From Coriobacteriia bacterium (lineage in GTDB: Bacteria > Actinomycetota > Coriobacteriia > Anaerosomatales > PHET01): 64,000 nt of DNA. Of the stretch, positions 34,364 through 39,366 are shown piece by piece. The notes under the pieces are model-generated. The model searched no databases. It was not told the origin of the DNA and saw only the letters and a program-made list of their open reading frames with translations. The stretch's first letter is position 1. Every line of letters starts with the position of its first letter. The translations under genes and the position numbers were made by a program. The stretch is from contig JAXMKZ010000051.1 of the NCBI GenBank assembly GCA_034370385.1, positions 62,001-126,000 of the forward strand, read 5' to 3'.

Positions 34364-35713
34364 ATGAGCACGCGACTCTTCGGCACCGACGGTGTGCGCG
34401 GCGTGGCCAACGCCGAGCTGACGCCTGAACTGACTTTCCGGTTGGGCGAGGCCGCGGGTCACTTCCTCGGTGATCACGGCGCCGGGCGCATCGTGGTGGG
34501 GCGCGACACGCGCCGCAGCGGCGAGATGCTCGAGGCCGCACTGGTCGCGGGGATCACCGCAGGCGGGGGCGACGCGCTCCTTGCGGGGATCGTCCCGACT
34601 CCTGCGGTGGCGCTGCTCGTGCGCGAGCTCTCCGCCGACGGGGGCGTGGTCATCTCGGCAAGCCACAATGCTCCCGAGTACAACGGCATCAAGCTATTCA
34701 GCCGGGAGGGCCTGAAGCTCCCCGACGAGCTCGAGGATGAGATCGAGACGTTCTGTCTGTCGGAGCGCGACTGGGAGCGGCCGACGGGCGCCGACATCGG
34801 TCGCTGCGAGCGCATCCCCGATGCCGTCGAGCGCTACGTCGCGCATGCCTGCACTACGGTGAAGGGCGACTTGGATGGCATCCGTGTGGCTATCGATTGT
34901 GGTCACGGGGCCGCCGCCGTTGCATCACGGGCGGCCTTCGAGCGCCTCGGGGCCCACGTGACAGAGATCAACGCGGATTTCGACGGCACCGACATCAACG
35001 TCGGGTGCGGGTCGACCCACCTGGGACAACTGGCCCGGCTCGTCTCGGGCGGCGACTTCCATCTGGGCGTCGCTCACGACGGGGACGCGGACCGCGTCTT
35101 GGCCGTTGATGAGTTGGGGGCCGAGGTCGACGGCGACCAGATCATGGCGGTCACAGCGGTGAAGCTTCACGACGCCGGCGAGCTTGTGGGTGACACGGTC
35201 ATCTCGACGGTGATGTGCAACCTCGGATTCGAGGTCGCCATGCGTGAGCACGGCATCGCGGTGGTCAAGACCAAGGTCGGCGATCGCTACGTGCTCGAGC
35301 AGATGCAGGCCATGGGTGCGGTTCTGGGCGGCGAGCAGTCGGGGCACATCATCTTCCTCGAGCACAACACCACCGGCGATGGCCTCGTCACCGCGTTGCA
35401 GCTTGCTGCCGCGGTGCGTGACAGTGGCGTCCCGCTGTCAGTGCTCGCACAGGTCATGAAGCGCTACCCGCAGGTTCTGGTCAACGTGAGAGTCGCGGAC
35501 AAGTCTCGCCTGGCCACGAGCGCGGCAATCTCGCAGTCCGTTCATGCGGCTGAGCTGAGACTCGGTGATGAAGGCCGGGTGCTGGTGCGCGCTTCGGGTA
35601 CCGAACCGGTCGTGCGCGTGATGGCGGAGGCCGCGGACGCAGCCGCCGCGCGCGAGGTCGTCGACGGCATCGTTGACGTGGTCGTCTCTGAGCTGGGCGC
35701 CGAGCGCAGATGA
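34364..35713 (+). CDS. glmM: Phosphoglucosamine mutase
   Basis: It converts glucosamine-6-phosphate to glucosamine-1-phosphate, the second step towards UDP-GlcNAc for the cell wall. It is 449 aa: MSTRLFGTDGVRGVANAELT. The active-site serine is S100 in 'VISASHNAPEYNGIKLF'. The Mg2+ loop 'GVAHDGDADRVLAVD', the sugar-binding 'GGEQSGHIIF' and the phosphate-binding 'VRASGTEPVVRVMAE' are all present. ATG 34364 follows GAGGGGAG (34351-34358). Its stop overlaps the next gene by 4 nt (ATGA). Confidence 0.97.
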   Translation: MSTRLFGTDGVRGVANAELTPELTFRLGEAAGHFLGDHGAGRIVVGRDTRRSGEMLEAALVAGITAGGGDALLAGIVPTPAVALLVRELSADGGVVISASHNAPEYNGIKLFSREGLKLPDELEDEIETFCLSERDWERPTGADIGRCERIPDAVERYVAHACTTVKGDLDGIRVAIDCGHGAAAVASRAAFERLGAHVTEINADFDGTDINVGCGSTHLGQLARLVSGGDFHLGVAHDGDADRVLAVDELGAEVDGDQIMAVTAVKLHDAGELVGDTVISTVMCNLGFEVAMREHGIAVVKTKVGDRYVLEQMQAMGAVLGGEQSGHIIFLEHNTTGDGLVTALQLAAAVRDSGVPLSVLAQVMKRYPQVLVNVRVADKSRLATSAAISQSVHAAELRLGDEGRVLVRASGTEPVVRVMAEAADAAAAREVVDGIVDVVVSELGAERR

Positions 35714-37155
35714 TCGGGTCCCTCGAACAGGAGAGGGCTGCGTTCGAGTCCGCGCATCCTGCCTACGATGCGGCAGCCGTCGCGCTCCTGCGGGCCGGAG
35801 AGTACGCCCGGCTGGACGCTCGTGGTCAGACCTACCTCGATTACACGGGCGGCGGGCTCTACGCCGCATCACAGGTTGAGAAGCACGCAGCCATCCTTGC
35901 CAACGGTGTGTTCGGAAACCCGCACTCCAATAACCCCACTTCGCTCGCGTCCACGGCGCTCGTCGAAGCGGCTCGCGATGCGGTTCTGCGCCACCTCAAC
36001 GCCGATTCCGCCGAGTACGACGTGGTGTTCACGCAGAACGCGAGCGGCGCGCTCAAACTGGTCGGCGAAGCGTATCCGTTCTCAGATGACTCCTGCTACA
36101 TGATCAGCTTCGACAACCACAACTCCGTCAACGGCATTCGTGAGTATGCTCACCGGGCCGGCGCGATGGTCTCCTATCTTTCGGTGCACAAGCCCGAGCT
36201 GCGACTCGATGACGTGGTGGTCGCCCGCGAGATCACGCGCCCGGCGTGCGGGAATCGGCTCTTCGCCTATCCTGCCCAGTCCAACTTCAGCGGTGTCAAG
36301 CACTCGCTCGACTGGGTCGATCTGGCCCGCCGGCGCGGGTGGGACGTGCTGCTGGACTGCGCCGCGTTCGCGCCCACGAACCGGCTGGACCTCTCAGTGG
36401 TGAAACCTGACTACGTGCCGCTGTCCTTCTACAAGATGTTCGGCTATCCCACCGGGGTCGGGGCGCTGGTCGCGCGACACGAAGCGCTTGCCAAGCTGTG
36501 TCGCCCGTGGTTCGCCGGAGGAACCATCACGCTGGCCTCCGTGCAGAGCGGGCAGCACCAGCTGGCCCCCGGTCACACCGGGTTCGAGGACGGCACGGTC
36601 GACTACCTAGGGCTTCCCGCGGTCACACTCGGACTTGCGCACCTCGCAGCGGTCGGCATGGACTCCATCCAAGACCGCGTGATGGCGCTCGCGTCGTGGC
36701 TGCTGCGGTGGATGCGCGATACCACCCATGCGAACGGCGCTCCGTTGGTGCGTGTCTTCGGTCCGTCGACGACAGATGCGCGCGGCTCCACGATAGCGTT
36801 CTACCTGCTCGACCCGGAAGGTGATGTCCACGATGTCGATGCCATCGAGGCGCGCGCCGGCGAGGAGGGCATCTCTGTTCGCACGGGCTGCTTCTGCAAT
36901 CCCGGCGATGGCGAGATCGCGCACAACATCACCGCGTCTGACATGGAAGCATGCTTCGACCACCCGCAGACCGAGCCCACCCAGCCCGTGACCCTCCAGC
37001 AGTGCCAGAGGCTCATCGAGGACGCAAGCGGCAAGGTGCCCAACACGATCAGGGCGTCGCTGGGCATCGCGAGTGACTTCGGTGACGTCTGGAGGTTCGC
37101 TCGCTTCGCCGAAGGGTATCTCGATAGGCCGGTAGGCCCGCGTCCCGTCCGCTAG
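35710..37155 (+). CDS. Molybdenum-cofactor-sulfurase-like PLP-dependent cysteine desulfurase (class V aminotransferase fold)
   Basis: This 481-aa protein resembles the NifS-like N-terminal half of eukaryotic MoCo sulfurases (ABA3/MOCOS). Shared features are 'YLDYTGGGLYAASQ', 'GNPHSNNPTS', 'VVFTQNASGALKLVGEAYPF', 'AYPAQSNFSGVKHSLDW' and the PLP-lysine motif 'SFYKMFGYPTGVGALV' (K242). The motif 'RTGCFCNPG' with C394 and C396 corresponds to the sulfur-carrying cysteine region. No MOSC domain follows, so it is a stand-alone desulfurase-like enzyme. Its start overlaps the glmM stop (ATGA). Substrate and partner are unknown; sulfuration of a molybdenum or tungsten cofactor is inference from family. 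Confidence 0.85.
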   Translation: MIGSLEQERAAFESAHPAYDAAAVALLRAGEYARLDARGQTYLDYTGGGLYAASQVEKHAAILANGVFGNPHSNNPTSLASTALVEAARDAVLRHLNADSAEYDVVFTQNASGALKLVGEAYPFSDDSCYMISFDNHNSVNGIREYAHRAGAMVSYLSVHKPELRLDDVVVAREITRPACGNRLFAYPAQSNFSGVKHSLDWVDLARRRGWDVLLDCAAFAPTNRLDLSVVKPDYVPLSFYKMFGYPTGVGALVARHEALAKLCRPWFAGGTITLASVQSGQHQLAPGHTGFEDGTVDYLGLPAVTLGLAHLAAVGMDSIQDRVMALASWLLRWMRDTTHANGAPLVRVFGPSTTDARGSTIAFYLLDPEGDVHDVDAIEARAGEEGISVRTGCFCNPGDGEIAHNITASDMEACFDHPQTEPTQPVTLQQCQRLIEDASGKVPNTIRASLGIASDFGDVWRFARFAEGYLDRPVGPRPVR

Positions 37156-37267
37156 CTAGGCGACGTCACCCGTTCGTCATCGGCGAGTTGTGTCCCAAGC
37201 GGTACAATGGTCGTGCAGTGACCGCACGGGAAGGGGAGTGGGCCGCGTCATCTGATCAGCACTGACA

Positions 37268-37470
37268 AGCGCCAGGACTGGCGAGACGCCGCCGCAACGG
37301 TGTCGAGGGCGAAAGCCCGCATACCAGTCGACGAGGAGAGGGCCGATCGAAGGATTCGGCGGATGGCCCTCCGGCCCAACCGGTGGTCGTGACGTTGCCG
37401 ACAAAGCCTGCAGGCGACTGCGGGGACAAAGCGGCGACGGTGACCGGTTCAACGAGGTCCGGCGGAGCGC
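37268..37470 (+). ncRNA. glmS ribozyme (glucosamine-6-phosphate-dependent self-cleaving riboswitch)
   Basis: The RNA starts with the cleavage-site consensus A|GCGCC (cut predicted between A37268 and G37269). P1 pairs GACTGG with CCAGTC, closing just before GACGAGG. Then come GAGGGCC/GGCCCTC (P2.1-like) around the conserved 'ATCGAAGGATTCGGCGG' and, later, 'AAAGCCTGCAGGCGACTGCG', matching the P4 region of characterised glmS ribozymes. It lies 5' of glmS. In known examples GlcN6P acts as coenzyme for self-cleavage, and the cleaved mRNA is degraded. A TACAAT -10-like box lies at 37203-37208, without a clear -35. Confidence 0.93.
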
Positions 37471-37542
37471 ACGCCACACGTTCAGCTGACGTGCCCGCGG
37501 ACCGATCAACCTACACCCTCACCGAAAGGTCGGTGCTCGCCC

Positions 37543-39366
<1,824 letters not shown>

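Follow-up and report, generated by a model that had tools for sequence, protein, structure and literature searches.

The glmS locus

The window (the whole 64-kb stretch of DNA analyzed) contains glmS, preceded by a glmS ribozyme and, further upstream, by glmM. It encodes the following features.

34370..35713, + strand: glmM, phosphoglucosamine mutase, the next pathway enzyme (TIGR01455, 531.6 bits; cut-off, 447.6)
37203..37208, + strand: -10-like TACAAT, the presumed glmS promoter, at a position that fits the extended -10 of the order (TGnTAtaaT)
37228..37238, + strand: purine box GGGAAGGGGAG, RRRGGRG type, 30 to 40 nt before the cleavage site
37268..37269, + strand: predicted self-cleavage site A(-1)/G1, from the register of RF00234 and the core numbering of PMC7125110
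37270..37361, + strand: P2.2 pseudoknot, 37270-37273 and 37275 with 37357-37361 (5 of 5 pairs invariant, n = 28)
37276..37329, + strand: P1, 37276-37281 with 37324-37329, a three-way junction on top (97.6% paired, 3 doubly changed pairs)
37332..37349, + strand: P2.1, CGA 37332-37334 with UCG 37347-37349 (invariant, n = 28)
37338..37371, + strand: P2, 37338-37343 with 37366-37371 (98.8% paired, 3 doubly changed pairs)
37372..37389, + strand: P3, 37372-37376 with 37385-37389 (99.3% paired)
37378..37449, + strand: P3.1 pseudoknot, L3 AACCGGU 37378-37384 with tail ACCGGUU 37443-37449 (7 contiguous Watson-Crick pairs)
37393..37439, + strand: P4, 37393-37399 with 37433-37439, and P4.1, 37407-37413 with 37418-37424 (12 doubly changed pairs in the two)
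37414-37417, + strand: L4 loop GCGA (GNRA; L4 is GNRA in all aligned relatives)
37543..39366, + strand: glmS, glutamine--fructose-6-phosphate transaminase, 607 aa, starting MCGIVGY (TIGR01135, 848 bits)

The glmS gene is the only full-length copy in the genome. A sequence-only reading had placed a glmS ribozyme before glmS in an actinobacterial genome. The TIGR01135 match identifies the downstream gene as that reading named it, and the closest relatives by GlmS are Anaerosomatales and Coriobacteriia MAGs (Actinomycetota). The ribozyme ends 93 nt upstream of the glmS start. Of 29 actinobacterial loci picked by GlmS similarity, 26 have the ribozyme directly before glmS. A hairpin at 37520-37535 (CACCG-AAAGGU-CGGUG) likely holds the glmS SD in its loop; it has a similar counterpart in L002 and none in L003.

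The glmM gene is one gene upstream of glmS, with a class V aminotransferase gene (35710-37155) in between. The encoded aminotransferase is SufS-like, with a score far under the SufS cut-off. Because a glmM-like gene directly precedes glmS at another locus (L075), the aminotransferase gene looks inserted here.

The ribozyme and its structure

The glmS ribozyme is an RNA switch that cuts its own mRNA once glucosamine-6-phosphate suffices. The sequence-only reading had named a search with the RF00234 covariance model as its check. Run with cmscan on the 64-kb window, the search returned a glmS match at 37257-37449 on the + strand with 89.8 bits, far over the gathering score of 37. The match is full length (model positions 1-167 of 167), with E = 1.1e-20 for 3.5 kb searched and 2e-19 for the whole window. 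It is the sole Rfam match in the window above its gathering score and the only RF00234 copy in the 2.69-Mb genome. A chance match is ruled out by the E value of 2e-19 and by covariation. Matches to CRISPR-DR29 and sR42 were under their cut-offs and are noise. No similar DNA was found among plasmids that would point to a plasmid-borne ribozyme. The GC content of the ribozyme is 67%. By its sequence, structure, covariation, and placement, the element is a glmS ribozyme with predicted self-cleavage and an ordinary member of the known class; the element itself is textbook, an already-known RNA switch.

The core was numbered as in PMC7125110, with G1 at 37269. In the class, P2.2 comprises C2-G56, G3-C55, C4-G54, C5-G53, and G7-C52 with A6 bulged, and P2.1 pairs 28-30 with 43-45 and builds the active site and cofactor pocket (PMC7125110). 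A37274 is bulged in P2.2 and is the counterpart of A6. The motifs read from the letters are in place: the cleavage consensus as A37268/GCGCC, the P1 pairing as GACTGG (37276-37281) with CCAGTC (37324-37329), and the core as GACGAGG (37330-37336), ATCGA (37346-37350), and TCGGCGG (37356-37362), in order. The segment read as P4-type, CAGGCGACTGCG at 37411-37422, corresponds to the end of P4.1 and includes the GCGA loop. The proposed extent of 37268-37470 holds for the ribozyme and fails at its 3' limit, since the structure stops at 37449, the end of the P3.1 3' strand.

IL4 has ACAAAG on both sides of P4, facing each other, and its adenines are conserved. These segments correspond to the IL4 adenines found to be particularly mutation-sensitive (PMC11602151). 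With the GCGA loop also present, the window has the class elements by which L4 would dock on P1. The P3.1 pairing recurs in many relatives in an ACCGG/CCGGU-type form with the same offset.

Covariation was assessed in 28 ribozymes, 27 from the order and one from Heliorestis acidaminivorans, aligned with MAFFT on a structure of 45 pairs. Of all cells, 90.1% were paired. Double changes occurred in 23 pairs and 114 cells, compared with 13.6 and 38.7 in shuffles, and 0 of 500 shuffles reached 114 doubly changed cells. When the 3' partners were slid by 1 to 3 columns, pairing was only 26 to 44%. The active-site helices P2.1 and P2.2 showed zero variation among the 28, as expected because their pairs are catalytic. 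MAFFT misregistered P3.1 (45% paired there), and its pairing was checked apart from the alignment.

The GC-rich P1 extension read at 37282-37314 exists, at about 37282-37323; it is branched and not the single long helix that had been supposed. The P1 top consists of two hairpins, 37285-37304 and 37307-37318 (GAAA loop), which makes a three-way junction. The extension has a minimum free energy of -27.8 kcal/mol (z, -3.86 versus dinucleotide shuffles). The same branching is seen in the two closest relatives that have the ribozyme (L002 and L003, same genome family), in which the stem sequences differ; the window, L002, and L003 make three sequences, too small a set for a formal covariation count. 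Five more members have a branched P1 top (L012, L013, L016, L019, and L024).

The studied examples of RF00234 are from B. subtilis, B. anthracis, and T. tengcongensis. The window ribozyme is like the class in its cleavage site, double pseudoknot core, P1 to P4.1, IL4 adenines, GNRA L4, P3.1, and place before glmS. It differs in its branched P1 top, its high GC content, and a conserved purine box located before the cut. The Heliorestis ribozyme (L028, Bacillota, 107 bits) has the same core and also an enlarged P1 region of 56 nt. However, its P1 top folds differently, no purine box was seen in its leader, and its GlmS is 54% identical.

Proposed feedback control and the leader

The best explanation, to which we give a probability of about 0.96, is that a glmS ribozyme in the 5' UTR of glmS exerts feedback control of GlmS by self-cleavage dependent on glucosamine-6-phosphate. 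The glmS mRNA would start about 50 nt upstream of the ribozyme, from the -10-like site, about 7 nt downstream of TACAAT. In the folded RNA, P3, P3.1, and P4 would brace the double pseudoknot formed by P2.1 and P2.2. Abundant glucosamine-6-phosphate would occupy the pocket and serve as catalytic cofactor, and the chain would break between A37268 and G37269. The 5'-OH glmS fragment would then be degraded, probably by the RNase J of this genome. Less GlmS would be produced, which would close the negative feedback loop.

Sequence, structure, covariation, and placement are observed here, as is an RNase J family protein encoded in the genome (TIGR00649, 560 bits). TIGR00649 also matched 13 of the 14 control genomes, 9 of them with scores that exceeded the cut-off, and the presence of an RNase J-like protein is little specific to this decay route. 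Binding of glucosamine-6-phosphate, cleavage, and mRNA decay are carried over from the class, in which cofactor-assisted cleavage is established (PMC7125110) and, in B. subtilis, RNase J1 breaks down the 5'-OH fragment (PMC3997798). The absence of the ribozyme from several close relatives was counted against this explanation, as was the weakness of the promoter.

The promoter was placed by comparison within the order. Of 49 leaders from the order, 36 have an extended -10 (TGnTAtaaT) at 48 to 78 nt ahead of the cut, compared with 0.3 in shuffles. The window copy has no TG and is weak by consensus, and a generic sigma-70 scan found no promoter in the window leader. The leaders also contain the purine box. 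As descriptive counts, the motifs having been noticed and counted in the same related sequences, an RRRGGRG box lies 18 to 48 nt before the cut in 38 of 49 leaders (6.7 in shuffles), and in 32 of 44 a GCC comes within the next 9 nt (10.5 expected). No such box occurs in the adjacent upstream 30 nt of these leaders, or between promoter and SD in any of seven ribozyme-less sisters. In most ribozyme leaders, it is GAGAGGAG-like, then nTGCC. The box is SD-like in composition. It is outside the Rfam model and is a testable addition to the ribozyme class.

We tentatively suggest, as a fairly improbable extension, that the ribozyme of Anaerosomatales, and perhaps of other Actinomycetota, has an undescribed leader module. 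It would consist of an extended -10, about 20 to 30 nt, and GAGAGGAG-nTGCC, would be present or absent together with the ribozyme, and could serve in ribosome binding or mRNA stabilization until cleavage removes it. If true, the module would be a second arm of the switch.

A rival explanation that gives the leader a part in the control is unlikely. Cleavage would proceed as usual, but its effect on glmS in this lineage would depend on loss of the leader as much as on decay of the 5'-OH fragment; the box would stabilize the mRNA or bind ribosomes and be removed by the cut. The box and GCC counts, the box-free upstream stretches and sisters, and the SD-like composition all fit. Against it, start codons and open reading frame lengths are not conserved, and the related sequences are not independent. 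The box was also not seen in Heliorestis, and therefore it is not needed by the class. In 23 of 44 leaders, a start codon occurs close to the box (about 10 expected). A leader open reading frame in the window, GTG GGC CGC GTC ATC TGA (37238-37255), was rejected; its coding is unsupported, with starts not conserved and lengths of 2 to 143 codons.

It is very unlikely that the box is an alternative partner that blocks ribozyme folding by pairing with the P2 3' strand (GGCYCUCC) or the tail after P3.1. Partial complementarity is seen by eye in many members, and in family f26 the box matches the CUCCUCUC tail with a helix score of 17.6, compared with 14.2 for shuffled tails. However, the f26 swap test was not significant (P = 0.28), and in the order, pairing with a leader's own partner did not exceed pairing with swapped or shuffled partners (leader by tail, P = 0.89, the cleaner test). 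Whole-stretch duplex tests gave P = 0.47 for leader by tail and P = 0.90 for leader by P2; these used 40- to 50-nt stretches and are noisy, with some f26 and f18 tail starts wrong.

In family f26 (L127-L131 and L133-L136), GAGAGGA in the leader lies opposite a CUCCUCUC-type tail located right after P3.1. An extra helix enclosing the whole ribozyme is possible there.

Distribution and apparent loss

Of the 69 genomes from the order, 49 have an RF00234 match. Among 298 genomes of the class there were 55 matches: these 49, 5 in family f18 that pass the cut-off, and 1 in family f19 that falls under it. Across the phylum, 75 of 396 sampled genomes matched, mostly in a few families (f26, f36, f42, f47, and f51). 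Within the class, the ribozyme is common in this order and rare outside it; several families elsewhere in the phylum also have it commonly. The actinobacterial assignment of the sequence-only reading thus stands, and the rarity it implied does not. The result firmly establishes glmS ribozymes in Anaerosomatales, a lesser-studied order of the Coriobacteriia (Actinomycetota). No paper was found that pairs "glmS ribozyme" with "Coriobacteri"; two class surveys by McCown and colleagues were outside this search, so earlier actinobacterial reports are possible.

Twenty genomes of the order had no match. Seven of these (L073-L079; genomes G055, G053, G010, G011, G008, G009, and G065) encode an orthologous full-length GlmS, 74 to 81% identical. 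In an eighth (G056), the orthologous GlmS is split over contig ends and its upstream region was outside the comparison. Another six encode a divergent GlmS with about 49% identity, which is interrupted in one of the six. The remainder have GlmS fragments, distant amidotransferase matches, or none.

In the seven sisters, the extended -10 is only 32 to 114 nt before the glmS ATG. No ribozyme or recognizable remnant was found between the -10 and glmS, and no other Rfam element was found in its place. A cspA match in one ribozyme-less sister lies downstream and under its cut-off and is not a replacement element. By parsimony count, at least 5 changes between presence and absence are required on the GlmS tree; the long branch of L029 is an artefact of a wrongly excised sequence. 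Because the ribozyme-less sisters keep the extended -10 close before glmS, the ribozyme has apparently been lost several times in the order. Deletion of the ribozyme with the promoter kept would be the simplest reading. Through these apparent losses, nature offers leaders with and without a metabolite-sensing ribozyme for comparison.

Repeated loss might also suggest that the window ribozyme is a decayed, inactive relic. We regard this as extremely improbable; all of its active-site positions are intact, the helices covary, and where the ribozyme is lost it is wholly absent.

The L081-L086 sequences (genera g5, g6, g10, and part of g14) encode GlmS about 49% identical to that of the window, in genomes with no ribozyme match. 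Their glmS is possibly a replaced gene.

Extra-stem variants occur in Actinomycetota families f26, f42, and f47, and all match RF00234 over the cut-off. One or two hairpins are inserted between the P2.1 and P2.2 strands (L122-L125 in f47, L066 and L139 in f42, and L127-L134 in f26), where the corresponding linker in the window is short and plain. McCown et al. 2011 reportedly described core extra-stem variants of this kind for Deinococcus-Thermus. The f47 ribozymes also diverge at P2.2, with GCGCAUG or GCGAAUG paired with CAGCG.
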